Below, piece after piece: positions 12,797 to 58,486 of a DNA stretch of 64,000 nt. Below the pieces are notes generated by a model. The model worked only from the letters and a program-made list of their open reading frames with translations, was not told the origin of the DNA and did not search any database. Position numbers and translations under genes: made by a program. The stretch's first letter is position 1. Each line of letters opens with the position of its first letter. Origin of the DNA: a virus; IMG/VR virus record IMGVR_UViG_3300009154_002711, positions 62,001-126,000 of that record. The stretch is one strand, 5' to 3'.

Positions 12797-12803
12797 TAAT
12801 TAA

Positions 12804-13134: not shown

Positions 13135-13142
13135 TTCATTAA

Positions 13143-13788: not shown

Positions 13789-13824
13789 GTCGTAGCTAGC
13801 CCCATCATGGCGTTCAGCTACGAC
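13789..13824 (-). terminator. Cassette terminator
   Basis: GTCGTAGCT...AGCTACGAC, a nine-pair stem with an 18-base loop, followed by TTCTTTTCTG on the minus strand. The same tail is reused by the next leader. Confidence 0.6.
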
Positions 13825-13915
13825 TATCTTAGATATACTCTCTCCTATGCGGTTATTGCAGTAGTACGAGAGCTTCTGTTCCCAGGCTTATTCAGCCCGA
13901 TGTATAGAGAAACTC

Positions 13916-14110
13916 TTAGCGGATGTAGATCCGTTTCTGAGTTTTCTCTACTGTGCAAGTTGCGCTATTAAACGCAGGATCGCACAGGGTATACAACAGT
14001 TGATATTCTTGGCGAACATCTTTGTACTGTGTATTACCTACATACACACTATATCCTTGGTACATGACCAAGTGGATAAGTGTGCTTAGAGAGATTAGTA
14101 ATGGGTGCAT
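13916..14110 (-). CDS. Hypothetical small protein, 64 aa
   Basis: MHPLLISLSTLIHLVMYQGY at the N-terminus is hydrophobic, then a polar Tyr-rich segment with two Cys and a basic end (KRIYIR). CGGAGTTAGTA precedes the ATG. Possibly membrane-associated or exported. The 172 bases upstream are non-coding with a hairpin at 14170-14187. Confidence 0.5.
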   Translation of the reverse strand: MHPLLISLSTLIHLVMYQGYSVYVGNTQYKDVRQEYQLLYTLCDPAFNSATCTVEKTQKRIYIR

Positions 14111-14236
14111 TACTAACTCCGTAAGTCCCTCCGAGTAACGTCCTTAGGGGTCTACGTATCCGCTATTAATTCTCTTCGACAAGAGAACCACAGGTTAAAC
14201 CCGGAGTTGACGGATAAAGTGCAACTCAAATAAAGA

Positions 14237-14274
14237 GTCGGAACTTCCTAGGGAAACTAGGATAAAGCTCCGAC
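14237..14274 (-). terminator. Cassette terminator
   Basis: GTCGGAGCTT...AAGTTCCGAC with inner TCCTAG/CTAGGA, then TCTTTATTTGAG. The hairpin is identical to the one at 14814-14851, so one module is a recent copy. Confidence 0.68.
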
Positions 14275-14282
14275 TATATCAC

Positions 14283-14738
14283 TTAAACTGTGTAGTCACG
14301 ACACCCCTGCCCAAAGGCCAGGGGATTTACGCCACAAGGGAGGAGAGCCTCCCCTGTGGCGTATACACAGCCCTTGCAAAGGTTTTCCGACTCCGGATAT
14401 GCCGGTGGCGGACTATATAATTGGTATGCCGGGTGAAGGGCAATATTGCCCTCAAATACCGGTGGCAGATCTTGCCACCGGTCCTCCCACACCCATACCG
14501 TTATGTGACATGCCCAGAAGGGCAGTAACGGTATGGCACCGTCTGCATCCTGCACAGGCAGGATGACCATATAATTATTAAATTGCGGATCCTGATAGTG
14601 GATCCGAACGCGGGGAGTTTCCCTCGCCTCAATCTTAGCCGTGCTAAGATTAAGGTTGGCTTGGGCTTTCGCCCGTTTTGCTGCATACGCAGCGTATCCG
14701 GGAAACGTAGCCAATGTAGCCAGGTTGGTACGTGCCAT
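14283..14738 (-). CDS. Cys-cassette protein, 151 aa
   Basis: Starts MARTNLATLATFPGYAAYAA after the type-1 leader (GGAGAGACAC). An Ala-rich basic N-terminus, a beta-rich middle (RVRIHYQDPQFNNYMVILPV), a Pro-rich linker, then CKGCVYATGEALLPCGVNPL...CRDYTV. The last 32 residues closely match the 11631-12053 product. Probable metal-binding tail; function unknown. Confidence 0.67.
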   Translation of the reverse strand: MARTNLATLATFPGYAAYAAKRAKAQANLNLSTAKIEARETPRVRIHYQDPQFNNYMVILPVQDADGAIPLLPFWACHITVWVWEDRWQDLPPVFEGNIALHPAYQLYSPPPAYPESENLCKGCVYATGEALLPCGVNPLAFGQGCRDYTV

Positions 14739-14813
14739 GTGTCTCTCCAATAAGCCGCCTTTAAAAGAGGGCAGCTCAAATAAAGAGTCGATAATACTTA
14801 TCCTAGAAAAGAA

Positions 14814-14851
14814 GTCGGAACTTCCTAGGGAAACTAGGATAAAGCTCCGAC
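14814..14851 (-). terminator. Cassette terminator (double module)
   Basis: Same hairpin as 14237-14274, followed by TTCTTTTCTAGGATAAGTATTAT and a second CGACTCTTTATTTG. Confidence 0.68.
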
Positions 14852-14855
14852 TTAG

Positions 14856-15494
14856 TTATGCTTTACGAGCAGCACGAAGGCGCGCCACTAAATCTTTAGG
14901 CACTTGACGACAAGGACCAGACAAGATACCTATCAAGGTATCATACTCTCGCTTTGAAAACGCGTCCATCCCAGCGATTAGCCAGGACTCTCCATCGGGA
15001 CGTTCAACCCTCCAACCGGTGTTAACCGGCACTGGGGACCAAGTCCACCAGCTACCATGAGGTAAGGTAGACTTATGCAGCAAGGCATAAATCTTGTTAC
15101 CCCGCTCTAAGTAAAGCGTGTTTCCACTAATTTCTAGCCTCAAACTAAACCTGACCAAGATCTTGATCACCGTGGCAAGGTGCCACTTATATACGTAAAG
15201 CTTAACATTGTAGCGGTTAATCTCCGGTGGCTCAACGGGAGCCAACATTACTGCGGCTACCCAAAGGAGGCAGCGCACCGCTGCTGGAGGGCAACTTACA
15301 CCCTCCGCATAGTACGAGCCAGGGGCTAGACACCCCGGAATTTGTGATACCTGTAGGAGAGCGGTATAGCCCTCCTTGGGAATGAGTAGAATAACTCGAC
15401 CCATGGTTGTGGGCACGACGGCCCTCACATTAAAGTCAAACATCCCGGTCAGGATGGACGAAACTTTTTCTTCGGTCACGTTTACTTTAAACAT
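14856..15494 (-). CDS. Hypothetical protein, 212 aa (paralogue of the 13143-13715 product)
   Basis: Starts MFKVNVTEEKVSSILTGMFD. Beta-rich core, Trp-rich segment near residue 145 (HGSWWTWSPVPVNTGW) and a C-terminal helix ending LVARLRAARKA that matches its paralogue. A hydrophobic patch (AAVRCLLWVAAVMLA) lies near residue 75. It sits in the type-1 leader cassette, though the start is only weakly preceded by GGAGACATCAAG. Confidence 0.63.
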   Translation of the reverse strand: MFKVNVTEEKVSSILTGMFDFNVRAVVPTTMGRVILLIPKEGYTALLQVSQIPGCLAPGSYYAEGVSCPPAAVRCLLWVAAVMLAPVEPPEINRYNVKLYVYKWHLATVIKILVRFSLRLEISGNTLYLERGNKIYALLHKSTLPHGSWWTWSPVPVNTGWRVERPDGESWLIAGMDAFSKREYDTLIGILSGPCRQVPKDLVARLRAARKA

Positions 15495-15570
15495 CTTGAT
15501 GTCTCCAATAAGCCGCCTTTAAAAGAGGGCGAACTCAAATAAAGAGTCGATAATACTTATCCTAGAAAAA

Positions 15571-15601
15571 CTGTCGAATGTAGTGCTAGTACATCCGACA
15601 G
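15571..15601 (-). terminator. Cassette terminator (double module)
   Basis: CTGTCGGATGT...ACATTCGACAG, tail TTTTTCTAGGATAAGTATTAT, then a second CGACTCTTTATTTG. Confidence 0.62.
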
Positions 15602-15657
15602 CTTGGTGGTCAGTTATTTAGATTGTCTATCCTCGCAGACCTACGAGGGTTAATTGG

Positions 15658-16101
15658 TTACGGGCTATCCGCGCATAAATCTTCAATGATGCTTAATACA
15701 TCATCAAAGTCCTGTGCAGGAAATACAACCCCTAACGAAGTGATGACAGCCCAATTAAAGCCATCATGTTCGTAGAAGCCGTACACACCCAACTTAAATG
15801 TGCCGATAACGACATCTAAGCTAAGTGGTTCCACCACAGGAGGTGCCACAGAATAACCCATAAGTACCTGTCCCCAGATGCCCAGGTCCGTGGCATAACC
15901 CTGAATAGCAGGATTAAGCCCATCGCCATAGGCCCAGTGCAGATGCAGGTCTTCAATAACCTCATGAACGGTAATACGAGTACCATCCTTGAAGGCCTTG
16001 AATCCCCACACCTCACCTTGTGGGTTATAGATTTGCTCAACAGTAATGTTAAGCTCCTCTACAACCCCAACTGGTGGCAGGAAGAAATGGAGTTTATCCA
16101 T
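15658..16101 (-). CDS. Hypothetical protein, 147 aa
   Basis: Begins MDKLHFFLPPVGVVEELNIT; AAAGGAGAAC precedes the ATG at 16101, and a longer reading to 16161 is rejected. Acidic, beta-rich, ending in an acidic helix (DFDDVLSIIEDLCADSP). No family is recognised. Confidence 0.65.
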   Translation of the reverse strand: MDKLHFFLPPVGVVEELNITVEQIYNPQGEVWGFKAFKDGTRITVHEVIEDLHLHWAYGDGLNPAIQGYATDLGIWGQVLMGYSVAPPVVEPLSLDVVIGTFKLGVYGFYEHDGFNWAVITSLGVVFPAQDFDDVLSIIEDLCADSP

Positions 16102-16202
16102 GTTCTCCTTTCTCCCGCGTGCAGATAACCAGCTAGTTATCCTACGTCTTATGGAGTTCAATCAACAAATAAAGAGTCGATAATAATTAATCTAGAAAAG
16201 AA

Positions 16203-16238
16203 GTCGCTAACCCCTAGAGACTAGGATAAGTTAGCGAC
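16203..16238 (-). terminator. Cassette terminator (double module)
   Basis: GTCGCTAAC...GTTAGCGAC with an inner CTAG pair, TTCTTTTCTAG tail, then ATTATTATCGACTCTTTATTTG. Confidence 0.65.
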
Positions 16239-16245
16239 TTAACTT

Positions 16246-16320
16246 TTAGAAGCTAAAGTACGCGATGATCATCGCTATAATAGCGATGAACAAAGAACCT
16301 TCAGCAATCTTCTTCAACAC
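16246..16320 (-). CDS. Single-helix membrane peptide, 24 aa
   Basis: MLKKIAEGSLFIAIIAMIIA then YFSF: a basic start and one membrane helix. A GTG start lies eight bases after AAGGAGG. The ribosome site is next to a six-pair leader hairpin (TTAGGT-ACAC-ACCTAA). Possibly a small regulatory membrane peptide. Confidence 0.5.
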   Translation of the reverse strand: MLKKIAEGSLFIAIIAMIIAYFSF

Positions 16321-16354
16321 AGAAATCACCTCCTTAGGTGTGTACCTAAAGAAG

Positions 16355-16377
16355 AGGTCGGGGTATTCCCCCGACCT
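16355..16377 (-). terminator. Cassette terminator
   Basis: AGGTCGGGG...CCCCGACCT followed by CTTCTTTAGG on the minus strand. Confidence 0.62.
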
Positions 16378-16381
16378 ACTA

Positions 16382-16930
16382 TTAATCTTTACTAAACGTT
16401 AAGACACCTCCAGTATCAAGGTAGATACGAAGGATTTCCCAATCGCTTTTATACGATAGGTGTGGAAGGAGTTTTTGAAGATCTCCTTTCATACCCATAC
16501 GTATAAGCAAATCTGGGGTTTGGAGCCACGAACTCCAGTTGAGTTGGTTTGTGCAGTGACTAAACCAATCATTATCTAAATTGCCCGTACGAGCAAGTTG
16601 ACTGATTTGGGAATCAGTCAAGGTGTAAAACTTCTTATCCCGCGCTTTAAGCGGGACAATGAGTTTCCCGGGTAGAGCATTAGGCCCCACCTGTGCAGCA
16701 ACTCTCTGCTGTACCCGGATCTCCCCTAAAGGAGTGCCCACGATTCCCCACCAAAGATGGAACAAATCATGAACAGAAGGTACTGCTGCCCCCTGTTCAA
16801 TGTACCACTGACAAAGGGAACCCCCCCCTTGTAGTCTAAATAACTTTATGGGACATTGTTGCTCCGCGTCATCAACGCGGATAAACAATAGCGAGCCCAT
16901 CCGGTGACCACTCTTCTTAGATAATCCCAT
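16382..16930 (-). CDS. Hypothetical protein, 182 aa
   Basis: Starts MGLSKKSGHRMGSLLFIRVD; GGAGAGGATC precedes the ATG. It contains LTDSQISQLARTGNLDNDWF. The end (YKSDWEILRIYLD) loosely resembles the C-terminal helix of the 13143 and 14856 paralogues. Its leader has a CTCTAC...GTAGAG hairpin. No family is recognised. Confidence 0.63.
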   Translation of the reverse strand: MGLSKKSGHRMGSLLFIRVDDAEQQCPIKLFRLQGGGSLCQWYIEQGAAVPSVHDLFHLWWGIVGTPLGEIRVQQRVAAQVGPNALPGKLIVPLKARDKKFYTLTDSQISQLARTGNLDNDWFSHCTNQLNWSSWLQTPDLLIRMGMKGDLQKLLPHLSYKSDWEILRIYLDTGGVLTFSKD

Positions 16931-16981
16931 GATCCTCTCCCTGGAGTACCTCTACGAAATTGTAGAGCAGTAGTCCAAGAA

Positions 16982-17014
16982 AAAGAGTCGGAGGTTGCTA
17001 GCCTCCAACTCTTT
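16982..17014 (-). terminator. Strong bidirectional terminator
   Basis: AAAGAGTTGGAGG pairs with CCTCCGACTCTTT over 13 positions (one G-T pair) around CTAGCAA, followed by TTC. Confidence 0.7.
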
Positions 17015-17020
17015 ATTTAC

Positions 17021-17416
17021 TTATTGCGGTGGGAATTCAAAGAACTCCACGATGGTAGTCAACGGGAGGTGCACCCATTTAGAGTAATGCACCTCCGTTA
17101 ACATAACATTTGACGCATAGGGCAGGGTGCCCTCAGTCATGGAGAGTGTAATATGAGGGTGCGTGTTATCGCACACCTCCTGGATCTCCTCAGGAAGGAG
17201 AACTGACAGGGCTTGCACCCTATCATCGTGGTGTGACAGCATAGCTGTCACAATAAGCTGCTGACCAAGCAGGTGTTGATAGCCGACGCTATCAACCCCG
17301 AACTTGAGCGTGCAATGGAAGTGTTTAGCTTCCACTGGAAACTCGAAGTTCACAGCAGCTTTGACTGCTGCGATGGCCTCAGCAGTCAAAGAAAGCCAAA
17401 GAATTCCCTTTGCCAT
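17021..17416 (-). CDS. 2H phosphoesterase-like protein, 131 aa
   Basis: Two H-x-T motifs typical of the 2H phosphoesterase superfamily are present: HFHCTLKFG (His34, Thr36) and HPHITLS (His88, Thr90), 54 residues apart. The size fits single-domain members. Superfamily enzymes cleave 2',3'-cyclic phosphates or cyclic oligonucleotides; phage members include the anti-CBASS protein Acb1. The start MAKGILWLSL at 17416 follows AGGTGAATGAC; a GTG nine bases upstream is an alternative. A hairpin CTGGGG...CCCCAG abuts the ribosome site. The fold call is fairly firm; the substrate is unknown. Confidence 0.7.
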   Translation of the reverse strand: MAKGILWLSLTAEAIAAVKAAVNFEFPVEAKHFHCTLKFGVDSVGYQHLLGQQLIVTAMLSHHDDRVQALSVLLPEEIQEVCDNTHPHITLSMTEGTLPYASNVMLTEVHYSKWVHLPLTTIVEFFEFPPQ

Positions 17417-17457
17417 GTCATTCACCTGGGGTGTGAAAGATTTGCCCCAGAAAAGAA

Positions 17458-17495
17458 GTCGGTAATCCCTAGAGAAACTAGGATAGATTACCGAC
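17458..17495 (-). terminator. Cassette terminator
   Basis: GTCGGTAATC...GATTACCGAC with inner CCTAG/CTAGG, followed by TTCTTTTCTG, which leads directly into the next leader hairpin. Confidence 0.66.
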
Positions 17496-17501
17496 AGCTA
17501 G

Positions 17502-17849
17502 CTACAGGTAGACCCTGCAGTTAGTCAGGAGTATAGGATACTCCTCTCTTAACCAATCTCGATCCTCCTCTAAAAGAGGGACAGGATCCTCATTATCAAT
17601 ACGATAATGAGTGGCACGATTGCACACCTCATCACCGTTCATTATATCTTCAACAATGTAACCATCTAAGGTTACAAACTCACTGTTAAACATGGAGCAA
17701 AGCTCCTGTGTAATATAGCTCTTACTCCTAAAAGGAGTAATGGGGCCTAAGTCCCCATTGTTAATTTGATCTCTCTCGACTGTATCCCGGGTAACTTTAC
17801 CCACAGCCAGTAAACAAAACTCATAGGCCTCAGCAGTAAACTTGATCAT
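17502..17849 (-). CDS. Hypothetical protein, 115 aa
   Basis: Starts MIKFTAEAYEFCLLAVGKVT with AGGAGGTTCACC before the ATG. Acidic alpha/beta protein (EDIMNGDEVCNRATHYRIDN). Its leader contains GAGATC...GATCTC and GGGG...CCCC hairpins. No family is recognised. Confidence 0.65.
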   Translation of the reverse strand: MIKFTAEAYEFCLLAVGKVTRDTVERDQINNGDLGPITPFRSKSYITQELCSMFNSEFVTLDGYIVEDIMNGDEVCNRATHYRIDNEDPVPLLEEDRDWLREEYPILLTNCRVYL

Positions 17850-17914
17850 GGTGAACCTCCTTGACAGAGAGGGGAACCACCCCGAGATCTTTAATAGAGG
17901 ATCTCAGAAAAAGA

Positions 17915-17952
17915 GTCGAAGACTATAAGAGGAGGCTCTTACAATCTTCGAC
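17915..17952 (-). terminator. Cassette terminator
   Basis: GTCGAAGA...TCTTCGAC followed by TCTTTTTCTG on the minus strand. Confidence 0.63.
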
Positions 17953-17957
17953 TCCAG

Positions 17958-18281
17958 TTAGGCATCATAAACAAGGGTATTACCCCCAGCTTTCTGAAAG
18001 CCTAAACTTAAGAAGGCCAAGCTCCGATGCTCAGCCAAGCCATCCCCCTCATAAGGAATGGCCATTACTTCAACCCCAGCCAAGGGGCCAGCGGTCCATT
18101 GGCTGAAGGTACGACAAAGCCATCGTACAATCCGGACTTTCGTCCTAACTTCAGCACTAACAATAGTATAACTATTATTAATGCTAAAGCTAATAGACCC
18201 CGAGCTTGCAGTCCCACGGAACTCAAGCTCAACGGCAACCCCATCAATTAGGGTTACCGCTTTGATAATGTCTAGTTCCAT
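17958..18281 (-). CDS. Hypothetical protein, 107 aa (GNAT-like C-terminus, paralogue of 18595-18987)
   Basis: Starts MELDIIKAVTLIDGVAVELE; a GTG 15 bases upstream is possible. Neither has a clear Shine-Dalgarno site, and the leader is only about 30 bases after the terminator tail. The C-terminal half (VRTKVRIVRWL...GDGLAEHRSLAFLSLGF) parallels the 18595 product and ends like the last strand-helix of GNAT acetyltransferases. The acetyl-CoA loop is not convincing, so function is open. Confidence 0.58.
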   Translation of the reverse strand: MELDIIKAVTLIDGVAVELEFRGTASSGSISFSINNSYTIVSAEVRTKVRIVRWLCRTFSQWTAGPLAGVEVMAIPYEGDGLAEHRSLAFLSLGFQKAGGNTLVYDA

Positions 18282-18308
18282 ATTAGAAACTATCACAACA
18301 GAAAAAGA

Positions 18309-18328
18309 GTCGAGGCAGTTGCCCCGAC
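18309..18328 (-). terminator. Cassette terminator
   Basis: GTCGGGGC-AACT-GCCTCGAC followed by TCTTTTTCTG. Confidence 0.63.
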
Positions 18329-18372
18329 ATCTTAGTTAGAATTTCTTACCCGCGCTAACTACGCGGACACCC

Positions 18373-18528
18373 CTAAAGTCCAGCCCCAAGCTGGTCTAGG
18401 GTGATGAACCCTAGCCTCCAAGCTTGAAGCCAACAGTTGGAAGGGGTGCACTCCTCAACTGTTGTGAACATCTTCACTACCAACTGGCGCTCAGCATCAG
18501 TCAGTAACAAAGCTAACTGTGGGCACAT
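18373..18528 (-). CDS. Small protein, 51 aa
   Basis: MCPQLALLLTDAERQLVVKM then a Cys- and Trp-containing stretch ending ITLDQLGAGL. AAGGAGG lies nine bases before the ATG. Two helices are likely. No family is recognised. Confidence 0.5.
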   Translation of the reverse strand: MCPQLALLLTDAERQLVVKMFTTVEECTPSNCWLQAWRLGFITLDQLGAGL

Positions 18529-18567
18529 AAAGAATCACCTCCTTAAGGTTATGCTCACAGAAAAGAA

Positions 18568-18589
18568 GTCGAAGGGAAGGCCCTCCAAC
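18568..18589 (-). terminator. Cassette terminator
   Basis: GTTGGAGGG-CCTT-CCCTTCGAC with TTCTTTTCTG downstream on the minus strand. Confidence 0.58.
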
Positions 18590-18594
18590 TTCTT

Positions 18595-18987
18595 TTAGGT
18601 GATAAGAAAATAACTATCACCATACTCGGCAAAGCCGAGTGAATCAAGAAATTTGCAGCGGACACTGTGATGGCCATCACCATCACAGGGAAACGCGCAA
18701 ACAATGGTGTTTGCGGGGAGACCCGCGATGTGTGCTTTTACAGCACGGTACGCGGTACGGACCGCGCTTGTTGGGACGACGCTGTGGTTAGCAGCATTGT
18801 AACCAACGGAGCCATTAACATCTGCATCGAGGACGATGCAGCTGACGTAATCATCACCGAAGAAGTCTTCGGTGACGAAGAAGTTGACGCTAAGCGCGCC
18901 AACGGTGATATCAGCATTGAAGCTGACATCAACAGGAGTATTAGATACTCCTGCTTTGAGATTAGTAAGTTGGCGAATGGTATTCAT
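18595..18987 (-). CDS. Hypothetical protein, 130 aa (GNAT-like C-terminus)
   Basis: Starts MNTIRQLTNLKAGVSNTPVD; GGAGGGGGGGA precedes the ATG. N-terminal beta strands, then AVRTAYRAVKAHIAGLPANT, FPCDGDGHHSVRCKFLDSLG and a final strand YFLIT. The end resembles the C-terminal part of GNAT acetyltransferases and matches the 17958 product. Function is not assigned. Confidence 0.62.
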   Translation of the reverse strand: MNTIRQLTNLKAGVSNTPVDVSFNADITVGALSVNFFVTEDFFGDDYVSCIVLDADVNGSVGYNAANHSVVPTSAVRTAYRAVKAHIAGLPANTIVCAFPCDGDGHHSVRCKFLDSLGFAEYGDSYFLIT

Positions 18988-19053
18988 TCCCCCCCTCCTT
19001 CTGTTACCCAGATTAGGTAACTCAAATAAAAAGTCGGAGGATACAGAAAGAAA

Positions 19054-19091
19054 GTCGTTAACTCCTAGGGAAACTAGGATAAGTTAACGAC
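19054..19091 (-). terminator. Cassette terminator (double module)
   Basis: Identical hairpin to 10591-10628, tail TTTCTTTCTGTATCC, then a second CGACTTTTTATTTGAG. Confidence 0.68.
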
Positions 19092-19098
19092 TAGTCAC

Positions 19099-19221
19099 TT
19101 AAGGGCAGCGATAAACGATGCAGATGGCTGCATCGAGAGTAGCCAAATACAGGGCTAATCCAACGTTGACAAGAATCGCGGCGAGGGCCGCGATTAAAAT
19201 ATCCAATGCGTATTTGCGCAT
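19099..19221 (-). CDS. Small membrane protein, 40 aa
   Basis: MRKYALDILIAALAAILVNV then a second hydrophobic part and CIVYRCP. A basic start plus a long hydrophobic helix. GGAGACACC precedes the ATG. The leader hairpin GTTACC...GGTAAC is shared with the leader of the 18595 gene. Confidence 0.52.
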   Translation of the reverse strand: MRKYALDILIAALAAILVNVGLALYLATLDAAICIVYRCP

Positions 19222-19283
19222 GGTGTCTCCTTGTTACCCAGATTAGGTAACTCAAATAAAAAGTCGGTATATACAGAAAAGAA

Positions 19284-19307
19284 GTCGGTAACCAAGGGGT
19301 TACCGAC
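19284..19307 (-). terminator. Cassette terminator (double module)
   Basis: GTCGGTAACC-CCTT-GGTTACCGAC, tail TTCTTTTCTG, then TATATACCGACTTTTTATTTG. Confidence 0.68.
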
Positions 19308-19314
19308 TATGAGA

Positions 19315-19521
19315 TTAGAATCCAAGGGCGCTAAGGCCATCTTGGATTGTCTTGAGTCTAGTTGGGGTGGTACGATACCCCCCTGCTAGACAGACAAGAT
19401 GAAAATATAAATCTGGGTTTTTTGTACAAAACGGATTTGCCGAGTATACGGTATCCACCGAAGGGGTGAACACGGAAACGGAAACGGAAACAATCAAAAC
19501 AAAACGGATTAACTTTGACAT
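19315..19521 (-). CDS. Exported small protein, 68 aa
   Basis: Begins MSKLIRFVLIVSVSVSVFTP: a basic n-region, a hydrophobic core and a likely cleavage after VYSA, leaving about 38 residues with two Cys that could form a disulphide. The core is written by a tandem GTTTCC repeat. The type-2 leader places AAGGAG before the ATG. It is the first gene of the leftward array. Function unknown. Confidence 0.55.
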   Translation of the reverse strand: MSKLIRFVLIVSVSVSVFTPSVDTVYSANPFCTKNPDLYFHLVCLAGGYRTTPTRLKTIQDGLSALGF

Positions 19522-19744
19522 TTGAACTCCTTAATAGTGGAGGACAAATAAAGAGTCGAGGCACAGAGGCTCCCAGTGTCAAGGGTATGAGCTAAAAAAT
19601 CTAGACGAAAACACATATATGCCGGGGGGGTATAGCAAGTACATATATGGCCTATTCAGAAAATTTCTAATTTTTTGGTGGGAAGTCGGAATTTCCCGAT
19701 TCGAATCTGATATGGTTAGAAAGTATACACCGGAGAGTTGCCTT
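19522..19744. promoter_or_regulatory. Divergent intergenic region before the LOV gene
   Basis: Non-coding gap between the leftward array and the rightward LOV gene. Leftward it has TTGACA (complement of 19577-19582) and CGACTCTTTATTTG. Rightward it has AAGTATACACCGGAGAG, similar to the GTATATACCGAC element in cassette modules, with GGAGAG serving as ribosome site. A poly-G stretch occurs at 19622-19629. Promoter positions are inference. Confidence 0.35.
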
Positions 19745-20488
19745 ATGCCATTTTTAAATACCCTAATCGGATTCCTATCCGAGAATACTAACGGTGGGGT
19801 TATTGTAGATGTAACTCAGAAAGATTCACCAATAATCTACGTGAACAAAGCTTTTGAAGAACTTACAGGATATAGCGCTACAGAAGTAATAGGAAAGAAC
19901 TGCAGATTTTTACAAGGCGGCGACAAGAATCAAGTCGGCATTCTACAATTAGGATTAGCGATTAACCAAGGAATAGGCTGTAAAGTATTGCTCCGCAATT
20001 ATAGAAAAGACGGCTTAATGTTTTGGAATGATTTAGCAATCACGCCAATCAAAGATGACGAAGGAAAGGTAAAATATTATATAGGAATTCAATCCGATAT
20101 AAGTGCAAGATTAGAAGGAACAAGAAGTTCTCAGGATACTTTAATCAAGTTCACTAAACTGGACATGGAGTTATTACAGATCCAAAGAGACATAAGTAAT
20201 CTATTAAAGATTGTACAGATTGGAAATGGTAACCCGAGTTTAATTCGTAGAGTGGACAAAGTGGAAACAAGATTAGATGACGTGCAAAAAGATATCTCTG
20301 AGTTAAAAGCTTTATATATAAGTGAAAGTGAATCTATCAGAGATACTTTAGGAACAATAGTAGAGAACACGCAGACTAATAAGGGCACAACCAGTGCAGC
20401 AATAATTACAGCAATAGCCACAACAATCATAGGATTACTAACTATTTTTGGTCCTCAATTAGTAACCTTATTACATTTAGTTAAGTAA
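19745..20488 (+). CDS. LOV-domain blue-light sensor with coiled coil and membrane anchor, 247 aa
   Basis: Residues 12-122 form a PAS/LOV domain with GKNCRFLQGG; Cys53 is the photoactive cysteine. Gln57, Asn85, Asn95 and Gln116 fall at +4, +32, +42 and +63 from it, the same offsets as the flavin-contacting residues of oat phototropin LOV2 (C450, Q454, N482, N492, Q513). Arg54 is kept, but the second phosphate-binding Arg (+17) is Gly. Residues 135-205 are a probable coiled coil, and 217-240 a C-terminal membrane helix. No kinase or other output domain is present, so signalling may be by oligomerisation at the membrane. The start at 19745 follows GGAGAGTTGCCTT; an in-frame ATG at 19619 lacks such a site. 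AT-rich like the genes to its right. The domain call is strong; the role in infection is unknown. Confidence 0.88.
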   Translation: MPFLNTLIGFLSENTNGGVIVDVTQKDSPIIYVNKAFEELTGYSATEVIGKNCRFLQGGDKNQVGILQLGLAINQGIGCKVLLRNYRKDGLMFWNDLAITPIKDDEGKVKYYIGIQSDISARLEGTRSSQDTLIKFTKLDMELLQIQRDISNLLKIVQIGNGNPSLIRRVDKVETRLDDVQKDISELKALYISESESIRDTLGTIVENTQTNKGTTSAAIITAIATTIIGLLTIFGPQLVTLLHLVK

Positions 20489-20512: not shown

Positions 20513-23500
20513 TCAAGTAGTCATTACAGACATATCATTCCCGGCCACATCTTGGAAGTGGTATTCATATTCCTGATTATTAATAGAACTAAGATAAGAA
20601 GTCTGATTTAATTCAGAATCATCATATTCATCAATAGAATCAGTAATAGAGACCTCCGCGATATTAAGAACATCAGACTCTCCAGCAGAGTTAATAAGCT
20701 CAAGCCGATATCTTTCAGCTTGGGCTTGTTCATATTCATTCTCAATAGCTTGAGCAGTCAAGGAAGTAACAGGGGATTCTTCTCTAGTAGCTGTCCGGAC
20801 AGCCATAGCCGCAGATAACCCCGCGGCAAGCGCACCAAACGCGGCAGTAATAAGTCCGGATCCCATATTAGCAAGACCACGAGAAGCAAGTTCTCCAACA
20901 TTAGTACCTTCTTTCCCTATAAATTTAGCAATAGGTGTTGTAATAACATCAGATAGGATAGTACTACCAACAATATTTCCTGCAAGACCGAGGGCATAGC
21001 CCCCTAAGATTTCATGTCGGGTATCACTATCAGACATATCCCTCATAGATTTAACTGCAGAGGTAATATCCGAGGCCATCATAAAAGCGGATCTCATAGG
21101 AGCGAAAGTATTAGAAGACATAAGGCCATGACCAACAGATCTACCTAATTCAGCAGGATCAGTATTAGACTCTCTACCTAAAGCGCCACCAACAATAGAA
21201 GCACCGATAGTAGTAACTGCCAGCATACCATATCCAAGGAATCCCATAGGAGTATTATTAGACATAGCATTTTTAAAGTTTCTAATAAGGCCACTAGGAG
21301 GATTAATATGTGCGCGCAGTTCATTAGATTGCGCTAATCTAGTAACCATTTCATTAGCTTCATAAGGATTCATTTGTTTAATATTATTATGTAAAGCATT
21401 AGAGAGATCCACAAGATTTTGATTATGTTCATTAGAATCTGGTGCTGAAGTAGACTCATAAGCAGCTTGTGCAATAAACATCATAGTTTCCTTAGCAGTT
21501 TGTCCAGAGATACCTAATCTAGAAGCATCACTAATAGCACGATCAATAATAAGTTTTCTACCTACAATTCGTTTAGCCGTTTCATAATCAATTACTTTGC
21601 TTTGTGGTCCAGCACTAGTAGAATATTCATGAGTATAACTTGCAGTACTGGGGTCAGTACCAATCATACCCGTAGCTCTAATATAAGAAACACCATTAAC
21701 AATTTTACCAGAACCATTAACATAAATTTCCCCTGGGAAAGCTCTAGGACCATGGCTAGAATATTCAAGAATTTTATCAACAGCATCACTAAAAGTCTTA
21801 GTCTTCATAGTCTCATCAATAGAGGCTCTAAAGCCAGACATAATTTCTTTAATATTTACATTATGTAATTTACCTCTACCAAGGATATCAGTAATAGTAG
21901 TACCAGCACCTTCACGGCTAGCAAAGTTTACTGATTCCGTAATAAGGGCTTGACCAATATGTGCAGCGGCCAAAGCCAAATCACCAATATCAGCTTTACT
22001 TTCAGTAGTTAAAGCTTTCTGAACCCCATACATCTTTTGAATATTAAGTAATCCTTTATGCATAAGTTCATTAACTTTATTACGGGCATCAGGAACAGAA
22101 AGGGGATCAAAGTCAATAGAACCCAATCCAGCTTCACCAAAAGGAGCAATAGTATTACTAGTATTAATACGACTAGCCATAAGTTCACGCTCATTTAAAG
22201 TAGAAGTAACAAACTTAAATAGATCATGATACTGGTGTGCTTGTAGAACTCTATTCATAGTATCTTGAAGATCCTTAGTATAAGTAACAGTACCAGTAGT
22301 ATCAGTAGCAAAAGCTCTAAGAGCAGCAATATCAGAATTATTCATTGCCGATCTACCCAGACTATCTTCTGCAAGCGTAACCAACCGGGTAATCTTCTCA
22401 CTACTCCCTCCAGTAACTAATTCTTCATCTAAGGTTTGGAATAAGTTAGCCGCAATTCTACGAATAGTTTGCAGTTTAGTATGAGGAACTTCTTTAGCAA
22501 AGTCATGAGCAATTTCATCACTACTAAGAGATCCCACATGTGCTGCAAGAGCACCATAGCTTAAATTTGTAAGGATTTTATTAGAGATAGATTCTGTAAG
22601 TGGAGTACCGGCATTACCTTGGACAGCAGATATATAATCTGCAACAGGATTAAGAAGCCCAGTAGCTTGAACAGCTTGATCAAGAGCTGCAGGTTGCAAC
22701 TTAGTTTTAGTAGGCTTGTCTTCATAAGCATTCTCATACAATTGATTTAATGCAGTATACATTTCGCTAGGAGATACTCCGGTAGCAGCATTAGGTTTAA
22801 TACCTTCTCTTCCCAGCATTTGCATTTGATAAGCAATACGAGATACAGACTCAATCGTTCTAGCTTTAGCTTTACCCATACTATCCGCTTGTAAAAACTC
22901 ATGACTAAATATATGAGAAGTAGTATCATAAAGCATACCCATATACTTAGTAGCCACTTGAGCAGTTTGTTGAGTAGCAGCCGCGGCTATATTTTGAGGC
23001 ATAATAACAGGGAACATTAGTTTAAGGTAACTATTAACAGTTCCTTCATTAGCAGAATACGCAGCCAAATGTTGGCTTAAGGTTGGATTACCTTGTATAG
23101 TATTAAGTTTATCTTCAACAGAAGCAGATTTAAAAGCTGCGGCGCCTGCCGCTCCAAGTTCTGTTGAGACAACAGTTTCAAACTCAGCACTATGAAAGTG
23201 ATCAATAATTTTAGTAGTAGATTCATACTGTGCTCTACCAAACTTATTAAGAAGAATAGAGTCTTCAATTGTTTGGGCATTAAGTCCAGAAAGAACTCTT
23301 GATTGACGTTTGAAGGTAGCTAAGATATTAGTATCAGAGGTAACATTTGCTGTTACTTGTTCATGAAGACTAACAATACGTTTATCCTCCATAATTCTTT
23401 CAGCAGTTTCTTCAGCAGATGTTGGGCCAAGTACACCATAAAGTGCATCATAAGTACTATGAACCGCATCAACTCCTGAAGTACCATAAGGAATAACAGT

Positions 23501-26500
23501 AGTATTTACCGCTTGTCCAGCGCTACGTAATCTATTAGTAGAATCTGTTACAGCTTGACTAATATCTGTAGTAGTAGGTGTTCTACCCAGGCGTCTACCA
23601 ATAATAGCATCACGTTCAGCCATTGCTTGTGCGCTACTAGTAAGAGCTTGAATGGTAGCCATATCCCCGTCATAATCCCCTTGCTGGTAGCCCATAGCAA
23701 ACTTAGACACGAATATACTATCAGAATTATTCGCGAATCCTAGCTGCACTCCGCGTCTTCCAGCAGCACGATTATTAAGAGTTCTCAGAGTAATAACCTT
23801 CAAAGCGGCGGGGGCAACACCCTGAGGTGCTCCTGCTCTTAGGAACATACTAAAGAATCTATCACTATATGCATCCACCTTAAGCATACTAAAAGTGTCA
23901 TTAATAACACCTAATAGATTACGATCATAGCCTTGTTTAGTAGTAGGATCTAAGATACCATAAGATTCCGCATGATGACGAAGACTATAGCCATTAAGTT
24001 TAATATCATCTAATATAGAACTGCCAGCAGTAGAACCAACCAAAGTACTCTTTAGAGTAGTTTCATCTAAAGTAAAGGGATTTGTAACAAAAAACTTAGG
24101 GTTAGTATAAGTATGAGCTTTAGTTAAAATATCAAACCCACTATCTAAGATTTCTTGATCTGCTCCCCCAGAGTAATAAGATTTATTAGATTTAGCTTTA
24201 GTAACATAATCATTCACCACACGTAATGCAGGATTAAGTCCCAGAGCAATTTCTCCCAACTTAACCTGATTAGATTCCATAGTAACACCAGAACCCCCGG
24301 CCGCTCTATGAATAGTGGTAGATAAGTATTGTTGATAAGTATCAGAATCAAGTAGGTTAGAAAGCGCTGTAATATAATTCCTCTTAGCCTCATTAAGAGA
24401 TTTCAGGTAAGAATACTCTTCAATAGATAACCCGTAGTTAATAAGCTTTTTACCATTAGCATTACTAACATTCTGACTCATATATTGAATCTTAGACATA
24501 TTAGTATCAGGATCTATTTCCTTTAAGGAAGTCGGCATTTGGTTAAAGACTTTAGTAATCTCTTGTTGACTTAGAACAAGTCTATTAATATATTGATCTG
24601 CATTATCTCTATTAGGATTTACATTAATAGATAATTGTTTAAGTTGTTCTGCTCCCAGTACAGGAATAAGTTCAAAGTCTAAGATAGTAGATTCAATATT
24701 TCTATGTACTCTAACTGCATTAGGAATAGCGGCCCCTAATTCAAATGTAGGAATCAGGACAGTACCCTTCTGCCTTGCGGCAAGTACTTCCTGTCTATAT
24801 TTATACATATCAGTTTCATTAATTCCACCTGCTGTTCTATCTGCCGCAGAGGTATTAACTAAGGTTTGTATTTTAGTATTTAAATCTATTTTATTAGTAC
24901 TAGATAATACATAACCAACAGCAGATTCTTTAGCTGATCTATACATAGAATCATACAAACTATGAATAGCCATAGCTTGATTTCTTGTCTCTTCATTTAC
25001 GACCAAGTGAGTAAGATCTAATCCACCATGCCATTGAGTATCAAAGGCAGGAGCAAATTCAGTTAAGCCTTGACTAAAAGCGCCGACAAGGAACATTCTC
25101 CCAATAGCTTGTTGAGTTAATTGTCTTAAGAGACCTATCTGTGATTGTTCACCGACAAGATCAGCAAAGGGAGTATTAGCAGTAAAGCCAAGGTGATCTG
25201 AATCATTAGCATAGTGTTCATATAAAGAAGCGTACTGACTAAACATATTAGCAGAAGTCTTGCGGCCAAATCTGGTATCATCTGCTCTAAAGGTATCTTG
25301 AGATAAAGTAATCAGATTAAAGTTAGGAATAATCTGTTGTAATCTTTGTAGAGCTGTATTATCTTTTGGTTTAGCCCCGAGCATTTGTCCTAATACAGAA
25401 GAGACTAAACCATCTAGTTCCTCATTAGCTGGGATTCTACTAGCTCTAACTTGTGTTTTAACCTGAGTATATAAAGAAACAGCTTCAATCAAGTAATAAG
25501 TAAAGTCTAATTTATGAGCTTGTGCTTGTTTTGCAGGAAGGATAAATCCAAACTTCTGACTTTGAGGACTCATTACTTCTGTATAAGCCTCTTTAAACAA
25601 CTGATTAATATATTGTGCAGGATCAGCATGTTGTATAAACTGATATAATTCATTATAGAAACCATGAGGAGACCCCGCAGTATAATAACTTTGCATAGCT
25701 GCCTTGACTTCAGGAGGTGTTTTATTATAGAAATCAATTTGCTCCTTAGACATTTTATTAACTAAACTTTCAGTAAGCTTTTTAACATCCTCAATAACTT
25801 CTTGAGTAAGTGTCTGCAAATGTTTAGTAGAACTATGTGTTTGAAGATTTCTTAATTCCATAATCTTCATGAAATCATCTTCATTAGTAGCCATTAACGC
25901 GCCATATCTAAGTTTAAGGGCACCAGACATTTTAGGTTGTGTCCCATACTTAAACTGTTTAGGAGATACAAGTCTATTAATAAGAGGGCTAGCTGTTGCC
26001 AAAGATCCCTTAAGTTTTGTTCTAAAGTCAGCACCATCATTAACAAAGAGTTTATCTTCATCAAAGACATCATTATTCATCAAGACATCTTGAACAGCAT
26101 TACTAAGTCTAAGGAATCTTCTAGCCCCAATACCTCCATAAATACCATCTAAGGCATTTGCTTGCGTTTCGGCATAAGTTCTATTCATACCTGCGGTAGG
26201 ACCTTTAGTATCAAGCAATCTAGCAGTAGGATTAGTATAAAGTTTAGCTTTAAAAGTGACAGCAGTATTACCAGATTGTTCTGGATCCACATTAATCATA
26301 ACAAACTGCATTTTAGCGCCGGTTCTATTTTCAGCTAAGTTAGGAACTTCAACAGTAAAACCTGCCCCCATACCAACAGATTTCTGTAGATTAGTAACAG
26401 CAACTTTAAATTCATCTTCAGTATAAAAGTTACCCGCAGTAACTAAATCTCTTAGTTTAGTAACTAAGTTATTATGTGTGTTTTGATCTGCGGTTGTTTT

Positions 26501-37700: not shown

Positions 37701-38858
37701 ATGGCTGAATTAGCAACAGGCTTATATACACCATTTACTAGTCAAGGTGACATTCTACAAACGGGTACTACACAACTAACTGAACTTGCCCGTTCTTACG
37801 AGCAGCTTGGTAGTAGTAGTGTTTTAGATATTTTCTTCCCTGTAAGAAATGTCCCAGAATATAGAGTTAATATTGAACGTAAGAAATTCGGTGTGGGACT
37901 TTCCCAATTAGTTGATCCAGTATCTCGTTCTAGTTTCTTGCCAAAAGCTAAGTTTGAAAGACTATCTGTAGAACCTTTAACTATTAAAGAAGCAGGTACA
38001 ATCTCTCAATACGATATCAACACTGCTCGTAGAGTTGGTACTTTGAATGAGACTGCTGGATTGCTAAACATTGTAGAATTAGTCCAAATGTTAGTTATGC
38101 GCAGAAACAACTTGTGGAACTTGTTAAAGTCTCAAGTATTACTTGGAACCATTAATTATAGTGATCCTTCAAGAGGTGTTACTAAAGTCATTTCCTCAGG
38201 TATTCCTTCTGGTAACTTTAGAGATATTGTTACTAACTATGGAGCTTCTGGAGCATGGTCTCAATTAGATACTGCTAGAGTGATTAGTCAGTTGTTATTT
38301 GAATACACAAGATTGCTAGAATCTGGTAAGGCGCAACCTTCTCACATTATTATGCATCCTAGACTAGTAACTATTCTAACCATGAACCAAGAGATTCGTG
38401 AGTTAGGTTCTAGAGAATATCACACTCAAATGGGATTAGTTTCCTATGAGAATGGTAGATTAGCTGGGTTGGCAGGTTTGCGTATTGTAGAACAGCAAGG
38501 TATTTATGAAGATCCTGCTGATAACACTGTAAAGAGTATTTGGCCTATTAACCAAGTAGTTATCATTTGTAAGACTTCTTTTGATAGTTCAGCAATTGCT
38601 CCCACTGTAGGTAGAATGCACTATACATTATCTGAAGCTCCTGATGGACTTCCTGGAATGTATATTAGAGTTAGTCCTCCTAACCAAATCCCTGAACCTC
38701 AAGGTATCTCTATTGAATTAGGTGATTCTGGATTGCCTTTCCTAGTGTATCCTGAATGGGTAGCTGTATTGACTGTTGATACTGCTGCTGCGCTTAACGC
38801 CATTATTCCTAGTGCTGTTGCGAATAACGTTGCAGTTCTTGGTCCTAACAGTAAGTAA
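37701..38858 (+). CDS. Major capsid protein, 385 aa
   Basis: HK97-type organisation: N-terminal arm (TTQLTELARSYEQLGSSSVL), then an extended middle rich in strands, and a long P-domain helix (LNIVELVQMLVMRRNNLWNL). Length and position, directly after the protease/scaffold gene, fit the major capsid protein. Three bases separate it from the scaffold gene. Confidence 0.75.
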   Translation: MAELATGLYTPFTSQGDILQTGTTQLTELARSYEQLGSSSVLDIFFPVRNVPEYRVNIERKKFGVGLSQLVDPVSRSSFLPKAKFERLSVEPLTIKEAGTISQYDINTARRVGTLNETAGLLNIVELVQMLVMRRNNLWNLLKSQVLLGTINYSDPSRGVTKVISSGIPSGNFRDIVTNYGASGAWSQLDTARVISQLLFEYTRLLESGKAQPSHIIMHPRLVTILTMNQEIRELGSREYHTQMGLVSYENGRLAGLAGLRIVEQQGIYEDPADNTVKSIWPINQVVIICKTSFDSSAIAPTVGRMHYTLSEAPDGLPGMYIRVSPPNQIPEPQGISIELGDSGLPFLVYPEWVAVLTVDTAAALNAIIPSAVANNVAVLGPNSK

Positions 38859-48699: not shown

Positions 48700-50007
48700 G
48701 CTCGTGTGGCGGGGTCACTATTGACACCCTCAAAAAGTACATCTAGAACCAAGGGAAAGAAGCATGAGAATCACCTACCAGTACCGGATGCGCCCACCCC
48801 CTAACCAAGAAGCCACAATGCTTGATTGGTTAGAACTGTTACGGAAGCAGTACAACTACCACTTGGGTGAGCGTCTGGACTGGGAACGGCTCAATAAATG
48901 CCCTGTAGACCGTTGCTCTATTATCAGTTGTCCAATTGCCCCACCCAAAGACAGACCTAGCTATTACAGCCAACAAAATGACCTACTCAATACCAAGAAG
49001 CTGTTTCCTGAGTACAAAGCTATTCACTCTCAGGTACTTCAAGATTGCGTAAAACGTATTGACCGCACTTGGCAGCGATTCACTCAAGGGGACAGTAACG
49101 GTAAGCGGTCAGGCCGTCCTCGATTCAAAAGCAAAGGCCGCTATCACTCATTCACTTACACCCAGATGAAACCAGGATGCTTGGATGGGAAACTGCTTAC
49201 CCTGCCCAAGCTGGGAGTCATCAAGCTTATTTTGCATCGTCCCATCCCAAACGGCTTTGTTATCAAAACCGCTACCGTCACGCATCGGGCGGACGGGTGG
49301 TATGTGTCCTTATCCTTGCTCTGTGATGATGTGCCCCTTTTGGCTCCAGACCCAAACCCAGAAAATACGATAGGGATTGACTTAGGGCTAAAGGCGTTCC
49401 TGGTCACATCTGAAGGTGAAGAAGTTGCTATTCCACAACATTACCGCAAAGCTGAGAAGAAGCTAAGGCGCATACAACGTCAGCTATCCAAGAAGAAAAA
49501 GGGCAGCAACAACCGCAATAAAGCCCTACGCCGGGTTGCCAAATTGCAGCAACGCACGGCTAACCAACGTAAAGATTTTCACCACAAGACAGCTTCTAAT
49601 CTTGTGGTAAAGCATCAGGTCATTGCTCATGAAGACCTGAACATCAAAGGCTTGGCAAAGTCCAGACTAGCCAAGTCAGTCAATGATGCCGGATGGGGTC
49701 AATTCCTGTCAATTCTCGCTGTCAAAGCTGCAAATGCTGGACGGATGACGATAGCAGTGAATCCAAACGGCACAAGTCAAGAATGTTCTAGCTGTGGAAC
49801 GCACGTCCCCAAGACCTTAGCCGACAGGTGGCATAACTGCCCTAGCTGTGCCCTGAGTCTTGACCGTGACCACAATGCAGCCCTGAACATCAAACAAAAG
49901 GCGGTGGGTCATCCCGTCTCTGCTAGGGGAGGCTTCCAGGATGCTGGGCCAATGAACCTAGAAGCCCGCTCTATACCGCTTTGCGGTTAGAGTCGGGAGT
50001 ATGTCAC
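48700..50007 (+). mobile_element. TnpB-only insertion element (IS200/IS605 superfamily, no tnpA)
   Basis: A GC-richer island within AT-rich structural genes contains one intact tnpB and no transposase tnpA. The right end carries ACCGC-TTT-GCGGT and GAGTCGGGAGTATGTCAC, likely the 3' end of the guide RNA (reRNA) region. Exact ends are not fixed; no direct repeats are expected for this superfamily. Confidence 0.6.
48764..49990 (+). CDS. tnpB: TnpB RNA-guided nuclease, 408 aa
   Basis: RuvC-type nuclease of IS200/IS605 elements. Catalytic acids are intact: Asp206 in GIDLGLKAFLVTSEGE, Glu290 in AHEDLNIKG and Asp369 in LDRDHNAALNI. A zinc ribbon has Cys341, Cys344, Cys359 and Cys362. The Arg/Lys-rich helix EKKLRRIQRQLSKKKKGSNN is typical. 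The VSARGGFQDAGPMNLEAR tail resembles cyanobacterial copies. Full length and probably active; it would cut DNA with a guide from the adjoining right end. Confidence 0.85.
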   Translation: MRITYQYRMRPPPNQEATMLDWLELLRKQYNYHLGERLDWERLNKCPVDRCSIISCPIAPPKDRPSYYSQQNDLLNTKKLFPEYKAIHSQVLQDCVKRIDRTWQRFTQGDSNGKRSGRPRFKSKGRYHSFTYTQMKPGCLDGKLLTLPKLGVIKLILHRPIPNGFVIKTATVTHRADGWYVSLSLLCDDVPLLAPDPNPENTIGIDLGLKAFLVTSEGEEVAIPQHYRKAEKKLRRIQRQLSKKKKGSNNRNKALRRVAKLQQRTANQRKDFHHKTASNLVVKHQVIAHEDLNIKGLAKSRLAKSVNDAGWGQFLSILAVKAANAGRMTIAVNPNGTSQECSSCGTHVPKTLADRWHNCPSCALSLDRDHNAALNIKQKAVGHPVSARGGFQDAGPMNLEARSIPLCG

Positions 50008-57197: not shown

Positions 57198-57848
57198 ATG
57201 TCATCATGTAGTCAACAGTTTAATAATTTAATTAACGCGGCTGTACAAGATGCAGCCAACTTTGTAGTACCAATAGTAGCAGATTACTTTCAGCCTTTAG
57301 CAGATAAATTGTCTAGTTTCTTTAATCAAAACAAAGGATTAGACTTTGCTAGTATTCAAAACAATATAAATGATTTTATTAATACGAATATTACAGACAC
57401 AATTAAGCAGTTAAGTAAAGACCTAACTGCAGCAAATACAAGTATTAATAAATATATTCAACAGCAAATAAAAGAGGCTTTAGATAATGTATATAGTACA
57501 GTAACAGATAGCATTACATCTTTATTTGGGAAAGCTTCTTTAGATTATTTAGCTAATAGTTTACCCGCATTACAAAGCACCTTAGGATGTTTACTTACTG
57601 ATCAATTAGGGCCATTAAATGATTTACTAAATGCTAAAGATAAACTAGTAGATGATTTAACAACTGAATTAGCCAATGGAACTAATCTATTAAATACAAT
57701 TACTAGTTATACTCCTCAACCAATGATTAATACTGCGTTATCTAATTACATGGCTATTCCTGGAATTCAACAAGCAGAACAAGTAGTTAAAACAGCTTTA
57801 GATAATAGATTAAAAGGTAAAGCTATAGTAGCCACAGGTAACCCTTAA
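57198..57848 (+). CDS. Helical virion protein, 216 aa
   Basis: Starts MSSCSQQFNNLINAAVQDAA; almost fully helical with coiled-coil-prone repeats (SIQNNINDFINTNITDTIKQ). Immediately downstream of the spike gene and overlapping the convergent endolysin gene by four bases. Function unknown; tail-core or ejection roles are possible. Confidence 0.5.
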   Translation: MSSCSQQFNNLINAAVQDAANFVVPIVADYFQPLADKLSSFFNQNKGLDFASIQNNINDFINTNITDTIKQLSKDLTAANTSINKYIQQQIKEALDNVYSTVTDSITSLFGKASLDYLANSLPALQSTLGCLLTDQLGPLNDLLNAKDKLVDDLTTELANGTNLLNTITSYTPQPMINTALSNYMAIPGIQQAEQVVKTALDNRLKGKAIVATGNP

Positions 57849-58486
57849 GCAAGTCCTAAGGCTTGTTTAGCATGTGCCCAGCAAACAATTCTATCAGTTT
57901 CTCCATTAGTACCACCATTAATAGCTCTACCTATTTGCTTAAAGGAATTAAGATCTTTCTTATCCGCCAATTCATTTAGTTCACGAGTATACCAGAACCA
58001 ACCTGCGCTCATACAAGCAAATCTTGGTGTAGCTAATAAATCAGGACTCATTACTAAAGTTAGCTCTGAGGGAATTAGTTTGCGCTTAAATAATTCTCTA
58101 GATAGAAAAGTATAATTAGCTTTACCTGTAAGCTGAATTAATCCACGCCCCCTATATTTATAGCCATCAGTAGGAATTGTATTCCCCATACGATTGGCAT
58201 AAACTATATTAGCAATCTTATCTGGTTTACGGGCATTTACTAGCGCTGTAGCATAGTTAAAGTATTTAGGGAATGTCTTAAGTAATCCCTGCACGCCATA
58301 GTTAAGATTCTCTACAACTGCTGTAAGAGCAGCGCTTTCATGTGCAATCTGTGCTAAGAATGCAGCTTGTCTATAAGAAGTATTTATCTCGAATACAATA
58401 CAAGTCTCATTAATAAATGGTAAATACTTATCAGCATTAGCATCAGAACATCTAATAGCCTGCATTAATTGTTGTTTAGTTATCAT
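57845..58486 (-). CDS. Endolysin, GH19 chitinase/lysozyme family, 213 aa
   Basis: AQIAHESAALTAVVENLNYG carries the catalytic Glu of the HES motif; KTFPKYF, ANRMGNTIPTDGYKYRGRGL and IQLTGKANYTFLSREL follow in the order of GH19 phage lysozymes. No signal peptide, so a holin is required. The ATG overlaps the stop of the 29-residue membrane peptide (ATGA), which supports a lysis pair. Confidence 0.85.
   Translation of the reverse strand: MITKQQLMQAIRCSDANADKYLPFINETCIVFEINTSYRQAAFLAQIAHESAALTAVVENLNYGVQGLLKTFPKYFNYATALVNARKPDKIANIVYANRMGNTIPTDGYKYRGRGLIQLTGKANYTFLSRELFKRKLIPSELTLVMSPDLLATPRFACMSAGWFWYTRELNELADKKDLNSFKQIGRAINGGTNGETDRIVCWAHAKQALGLA

Follow-up and report, generated by a model that had tools for sequence, protein, structure and literature searches.

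A phage-encoded LOV protein with a predicted coiled-coil and membrane tail: a possible blue-light switch of lysis timing in a large, probably cyanobacterial phage

Introduction

What could a bacteriophage do with a photoreceptor of its own? The question is raised by a gene in a 64,000-base stretch of viral DNA (hereafter the window, which covers bases 62001-126000 of a virus record 155,514 bases long), which encodes a LOV domain followed by a coiled coil and a hydrophobic C-terminal helix. Cyanophage infections keep time with the alternation of light and dark, and one paper ascribes the rhythmic levels of phage transcripts to host photosynthesis (PMC7238727). A phage that carries a photoreceptor could sense light directly and time its burst accordingly. 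Judging from sequence, the protein may be a one-protein blue-light switch of a large cyanophage, acting on the timing of lysis; we give this reading a probability of about 0.4.

The phage and its LOV gene

Genes for the portal, the major head protein, the sheath and the baseplate lie within the window, identifying the source as a tailed phage. The LOV gene belongs to the same record, in agreement with the first-pass annotation, made on the sequence alone, which had described the photoreceptor as phage-encoded. A second record, IMGVR_UViG_3300010885_025649 (212,497 bases), carries an identical LOV gene; around it the two records agree at 20,741 of 20,741 bases, and their other overlaps are 99.6-99.98% identical. 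Arithmetic on the overlaps at the two ends is compatible with circular permutation of a genome of about 216.1 kb. The replication genes of this phage include ribonucleotide reductase subunits, ThyX, a primase, DNA polymerase A and helicases. Intein domains occur in both the large ribonucleotide reductase subunit and ThyX (L024 9571-15215 and L026 12061-13989, pieces of this phage), and the small reductase subunit has a weaker intein match, below the Pfam cut-off.

The reading frame is as first described:

19745..20488, plus strand: P0001, LOV-coiled coil-transmembrane protein of 247 aa (ORF, Pfam, solved-structure search, AlphaFold2)
19732..19737, plus strand: GGAGAG, ribosome-binding-site-like, 7 nt 5' of the ATG (sequence)

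An in-frame ATG upstream, at 19619, would lengthen P0001 by 42 residues to 289 aa; the start at 19745 is preferred because the ribosome-binding-like GGAGAG precedes it. The gene stands alone at its locus, convergent with a giant gene. Its GC content (0.349) and GC3 (0.296) are near those of the structural half (GC 0.353; GC3 0.234 for the capsid gene and 0.250 for the portal gene) and away from those of the early region on its left (GC 0.465; GC3 0.437-0.519 in three early genes), which leans to late expression. A promoter scan around the gene returned 4 sites for 4.7 expected, and no terminator was found there.

Several features of the surrounding DNA deserve mention in their own right. Near the LOV gene, GC falls from about 0.45-0.50 (window positions 1-20000) to 0.33-0.40 (20001-64000), a change that separates small minus-strand early genes from giant and structural genes. 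The minus-strand ORF at 20513-30079 encodes 3188 aa and has no PHROGs match at 0.001; its position resembles that of the 3562-aa gp080 of Microcystis phage Ma-LMM01, to which no similarity was found at 1e-3. Eight intergenic hairpins, seven of them distinct, are found on the minus strand of the early region (10588-19094). They have CCTAG..CTAGG-like inner stems in common and vary in their outer stems: 6 of 16 pairs are changed on both sides (as high in 9 of 500 shuffles), 98.2% of cells are paired, and the covariation score is 0.432 (as high in 0 of 500 shuffles). Since most copies lead into a T-rich stretch, the hairpins may serve in transcription termination or in RNA processing.

The LOV gene could be a mere passenger, either a functionless acquired host fragment or an assembly artefact. 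Its occurrence in a single phage population throughout the viral contig searches fits this view, and the two records may not stem from independent samples. Nevertheless, the gene is intact in both records, its frame is open, has a ribosome-binding-like site and is phage-like in GC and GC3, and the fused architecture is absent among the matches listed in 386 cyanobacterial genomes. We regard a passenger as very improbable.

Host

Two genes give clues to the host:

37701..38858, plus strand: major head protein (only matches, Ma-LMM01-type cyanophages)
48764..49990, plus strand: TnpB-family gene (61% identity with a plasmid gene of Trichormus variabilis)

Of 50,697 phage records, 10 match the capsid protein (26-27% identity), every one of them a Ma-LMM01-like cyanophage, and the seven best plasmid records for TnpB are all cyanobacterial. 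ThyX gave no host signal and a baseplate protein had no match among phage records. A photosynthetic host had been surmised earlier; the Ma-LMM01-like capsid and the Trichormus TnpB make this likely, while psbA and NblA were found in neither of the two records of this phage. On balance, the host is probably a cyanobacterium.

A LOV domain with its photoactive cysteine

The sensor part of P0001 comprises:

19748..19780, plus strand: N-terminal helix (residues 2-12), located where short LOV proteins have their A'alpha helix (AlphaFold2 model)
19793..20101, plus strand: LOV core (residues 17-119) (Pfam, solved-structure search, AlphaFold2, Foldseek)
19901..19903, plus strand: codon of the photoactive Cys53, in GKNCRFLQ (sequence, LOV alignment)

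The profile search proposed in the first-pass annotation matches residues 19-120 to Pfam PAS_9 (E 4.5e-22). Among solved structures, 157 distinct sequences match P0001 at E <=0.001; in the best 60 of these, the top relatives are LOV domains (9vf7, 3.2e-34; 7r5n, 5.6e-34), PpSB1-LOV entries score about 1e-32, and the NPH1-1 entry 2v0u, which we take to be oat phototropin LOV2, scores 2.2e-21 with 113 residues aligned to 113. The earlier assignment to the LOV family is thus borne out, as is the claim that the flavin contacts are in place: Cys53, Gln57, Asn85, Asn95 and Gln116 are all present. At these five positions an alignment of 54 LOV domains, P0001 itself included, keeps C in 52/54, Q in 51/54, N in 54/54, N in 53/54 and Q in 48/54 rows. 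The same residues bear the same numbers in PpSB1/W619_1-LOV, a Pseudomonas short LOV protein (PMC5314338).

The AlphaFold2 model computed on the LOV alignment has a mean pLDDT of 82.8 and a pTM of 0.62, with more than 90 in the LOV core. The best PDB matches to this model in Foldseek are LOV-kinase chimeras and short LOV proteins. A fold search of BFVD gave 20 matches at <=0.001, most of which carry a PAS or histidine kinase name; the best of them is 18% identical. P0001 is very likely a LOV protein of a phage.

In PpSB1-LOV the flavin phosphate is held by four arginines (54, 61, 66 and 70), and mutation of Arg 61 and 66 makes dark recovery 280-fold faster, according to the same paper (PMC5314338). 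P0001 keeps Arg54 and has Lys61, Ile66 and Gly70 at the other sites; position 70 is an arginine in 43 of the 54 aligned rows. As three of the four phosphate arginines are absent, a quick return to the dark state is expected. We predict a fast photocycle, making P0001 a reader of present light rather than a memory of past light; alternatively, the substitutions could mean weak flavin loading.

The predicted coiled-coil rod and membrane tail

Downstream of the LOV core, three helices are predicted:

20123..20221, plus strand: rod helix 1 (residues 127-159), with a hydrophobic 3-4 repeat (AlphaFold2, residue spacing)
20234..20377, plus strand: rod helix 2 (residues 164-211), with hydrophobic spacings of 3 and 4 (AlphaFold2, residue spacing)
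20393..20482, plus strand: C-terminal hydrophobic helix (residues 217-246), predicted transmembrane (hydropathy, AlphaFold2)

The 19-residue hydropathy of P0001 peaks at 2.16, at residue 218; AlphaFold2 confidence is low from about residue 211 on (46-62 per block), the last helix included. These predictions agree with the coiled coil and C-terminal membrane helix that had been noticed at first sight, and the protein is likely to be anchored in the membrane.

The tail (residues 125-247) matches the phage holin family phrog_689 with an E value of 2.8e-5, over residues 166-233, a stretch that spans rod helix 2 and the transmembrane helix. The match is weak but specific: none of six control tails, in which the coil was shuffled in heptad register and the transmembrane segment freely, matched the family. 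Pfam XhlA gave 0.028, below the cut-off. The nearest tail relative, the phage protein P0002, is 35% identical over 59% of the tail (E 3e-4). Searches with the tail found only the same phage among viral contigs, one match of E 0.8 among plasmids, and one weak match (1.5e-4 over 53 residues) in the 386 cyanobacterial genomes. Comparison with other phages suggests that the tail may be a holin-type lysis partner, a tentative reading that goes beyond the anchor proposed in the first-pass annotation.

LOV relatives in cyanobacteria, phages and viral contigs

The LOV domain matches at least 588 genome loci, and many of the best 80 are cyanobacterial, with up to 58% identity. Of 386 cyanobacterial genomes searched, with up to seven candidates scored per genome, 80 match at 1e-25 or better. 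The matches listed in these genomes are frames of at least 378 aa, except one broken frame of 157 aa, and the short LOV-coil-transmembrane form was not found among them.

Alternatively, the phage protein might be a membrane-tethered decoy, an acquired bacterial LOV module pairing with the LOV kinases or diguanylate cyclases of the host. LOV proteins dimerise via flanking helices; helices of that kind are predicted in P0001, and many of the best-matching LOV domains (best 80 of 588) lie in large cyanobacterial kinases and GGDEF proteins. A decoy would not need fusion to a phage-type tail, however, and the LOV tree places the window LOV with no host clade, so that we think a decoy improbable. 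The tree itself (57 rows) was rejected as evidence of origin: the window LOV is unplaced and belongs to none of the starred sets, the bootstrap is unsettled, and of the 54 inner branches 34 are open. L066, L089 and L079 sit on very long branches, probably because of the fixed-length cut.

The first-pass annotation had also called for a comparison with phage databases. A tblastn search at 1e-5 found LOV matches in 5 of 50,697 records of sequenced phages; four of these are short Listeria records, the fifth is a faecal one, and none is annotated. Three alignment scans of IMG/VR gave 23 distinct contigs with LOV-like matches, 18 of which keep the cysteine. Inspected by eye, these 18 comprise 11 kinases, three GGDEF proteins (one and the same protein on three contigs), one that is cut off and three without an enzyme. 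The enzyme-less proteins, in which Pfam finds PAS domains only, are those of the window phage (through its second record) and of two other loci, L010 and L020. The GGDEF protein, which contains NCRYLQ, lies beside a terminase-like ORF identified by eye (L141 5899-6900, also L142 and L143) and, from its sequence, is a candidate diguanylate cyclase under light control that a phage carries.

Among the literature matches listed, none describes a LOV photoreceptor encoded by a phage; most subscription papers and all bioRxiv preprints lie outside the scope of that search, which is therefore no proof of novelty. The only text found to contain both 'LOV domain' and 'cyanophage' is reportedly a diel plankton study (PMC6794264).

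LOV and PAS genes paired with coiled-coil/transmembrane genes

A sensor and a tail of similar architecture, fused in the window phage, occur as two adjacent genes elsewhere. At L010, with a terminase downstream, the end of the LOV ORF overlaps the start of a 119-aa coiled-coil/transmembrane ORF. At L020 the order is endolysin (phrog_17001, 2.8e-70; Peptidase_M15_4), LOV gene (joined by an ATGA overlap) and a 135-aa coiled-coil/transmembrane ORF starting 2 nt past the LOV stop; the L020 LOV domain lacks an equivalent of Gln116. At L138 the end of a LOV-like PAS protein without the cysteine overlaps an 86-aa coiled-coil/transmembrane ORF, and a search for close relatives of this pair found only itself. 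The small proteins of L010 and L020 score 0.037 and 0.034 against holin families, and no holin profile was found in the ORF before the L020 endolysin. A coiled-coil/transmembrane neighbour was not found at L137 (PAS without the cysteine) or beside the LOV-GGDEF gene near the terminase at L141. Upstream of its LOV ORF, L010 also holds, at 3797-4429, a coiled-coil ORF overlapping this multi-PAS LOV ORF; it matches GAF at 0.0011, below the cut-off, and its start resembles that of the LOV protein.

When 377 ORFs from 17 phage loci were filtered for the coiled-coil/transmembrane architecture, five passed: the LOV ORF of the window, the ORFs right after the LOV or PAS gene at L010, L020 and L138, and P0002, which had entered the 17 loci through similarity search. 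In the other pieces of the window phage none of 216 ORFs passed. In Ma-LMM01, of which 150 kb were covered, one of 163 did, a transposase; none did among 252 ORFs from 17 further viral loci, nor in the covered stretches of the 14 contigs with LOV kinases or LOV-GGDEF proteins. The filter was written after the candidates were known and some of the 17 loci overlap or are near-copies, so that these counts are support rather than a clean test. When the window tail was compared by profile with the L020 and L138 proteins, no homology was found (probability 0.2%), and the shared tail may therefore be convergent. Sensor and tail form a single protein in the window phage and come from overlapping or abutting genes elsewhere, once beside an endolysin, which suggests that LOV sensors and coiled-coil/transmembrane proteins cooperate at the membrane, with lysis as the most likely target.

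The pair at L138 raises the question whether light is the signal at all. P0001 could be a flavin- or redox-sensing PAS protein whose LOV fold senses redox or oxygen, light being incidental: the same gene pair exists at L138 with a PAS domain devoid of the cysteine, LOV variants without it are reported to be still able to signal (PMC5645311), and phosphate arginines are absent in P0001. On the other hand, P0001 keeps Cys53 together with the four named flavin contacts, and all three of the phages with an enzyme-free LOV protein retain the cysteine. Redox sensing thus appears improbable, slightly more so than a decoy.

A proposed light modulation of lysis

Blue-light control of lysis would proceed as follows. 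The N-terminal LOV domain would bind flavin and form the Cys53 adduct in blue light, a step strongly supported by the sequence. The coiled coil is predicted to carry the change onward, as in LOV-coiled-coil signalling proteins, and to end in a single C-terminal membrane helix, which would place the sensor on the inner face of a host membrane. The coiled-coil/transmembrane half would be an XhlA-type holin partner, whose oligomerisation or contacts light would alter, so that membrane permeabilisation and lysis would be advanced or delayed and burst time tied to light. P0001 would then be a light-modulated regulator of lysis timing, which we put forward tentatively. XhlA, XhlB and XlyA are all required for the formation of PBSX vesicles, in agreement with an earlier report on lysis (PMC5589764).

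The genomic position of the lysis candidate of the phage has to be set against this proposal:

57845..58486, minus strand: endolysin-like gene (GH19), the phage's own lysis candidate (Pfam, motif)

The gene scores 3.4e-5 with Pfam Glyco_hydro_19, at 24.2 bits just under the cut-off of 25.5, and has a motif in common with Ma-LMM01 gp069, annotated as an endolysin. It lies about 37 kb from the LOV gene, a distance that weakens the lysis reading: the two genes do not form a lysis cassette, and adjacency to an endolysin is seen only at L020, where LOV and coiled-coil/transmembrane proteins are separate genes.

The isolation of the LOV gene from the endolysin-like gene would also suit a different role, in which a light sensor tethered to the membrane works at an early stage, influencing the host or superinfection (adsorption, exclusion or host signalling), the tail serving as anchor and dimeriser only. 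Adsorption or replication of some cyanophages is light-dependent (PMC7238727), and the resemblance of the tail to holin-type proteins is weak. The phrog_689 match with its clean controls, the LOV or PAS genes beside similar coiled-coil/transmembrane ORFs in three other phages, once behind an endolysin, and a GC and GC3 that fit the structural rather than the early half all argue against early action, which we consider unlikely, though well short of negligible.

Blue-light control of lysis timing is our preferred reading. A broader form of it, in which we place a shade less trust, is that some phages time lysis by direct light sensing, LOV acting through an XhlA-type partner either fused or separate, and that PAS and coiled-coil/transmembrane pairs are a general environmental input to lysis, light being one of several. 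The diel synchrony of cyanobacterial killing would become directly testable with a single Cys53 mutant. A naturally occurring switch of lysis or of the membrane that answers to light would, to our knowledge, extend the range of LOV outputs.

Comparison with known systems

Among phages, the window phage is closest to Microcystis phage Ma-LMM01 (Fukuivirus), which has a capsid of 27% identity, a giant gene on the minus strand next to structural genes on the plus strand, and an endolysin with the GH19-like motif. Ma-LMM01 differs in having NblA, the giant proteins of the two phages are without similarity at 1e-3, and its one filter-passing ORF, in 150 of 162 kb, is the transposase.

The short bacterial proteins PpSB1-LOV, PpSB2-LOV and PF5-LOV and the LOV domain of Meiothermus Mrub_1259 are the best matches to P0001 in both sequence and fold. 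They share with it the LOV core, the N-terminal helix and the flavin-residue numbering of PpSB1/W619_1-LOV; unlike P0001, the short proteins have chains of 131-175 residues with no long coiled coil and transmembrane helix, and PpSB1-LOV has four phosphate arginines where P0001 has Arg54 alone. The LOV histidine kinases and LOV-GGDEF proteins of cyanobacteria resemble P0001 in the LOV domain (up to 58% identity, best 80 of 588) and differ in size, with frames of at least 378 aa bar the broken one of 157 aa in the matches listed at E <=1e-25.

For the tail, the nearest relative is P0002, which is 157 aa long, occurs in Xanthomonas phage PhiXhv-12 and Erwinia phage Ep032, and has LLKIV..GNG...LI.R and a C-terminal transmembrane helix in common with P0001. 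Unlike P0001 it has no LOV domain; it is annotated as hypothetical, and one gene separates it from a head-tail connector gene. Its scores against hemolysin families are 0.016 and 0.028 only, and it also matches many unrelated coils. XhlA-type lysis partners (PBSX XhlA; phrog_689, PF10779), of which we know none that carries a sensor domain, resemble the P0001 tail in combining a coiled coil with a C-terminal transmembrane helix, as predicted here.
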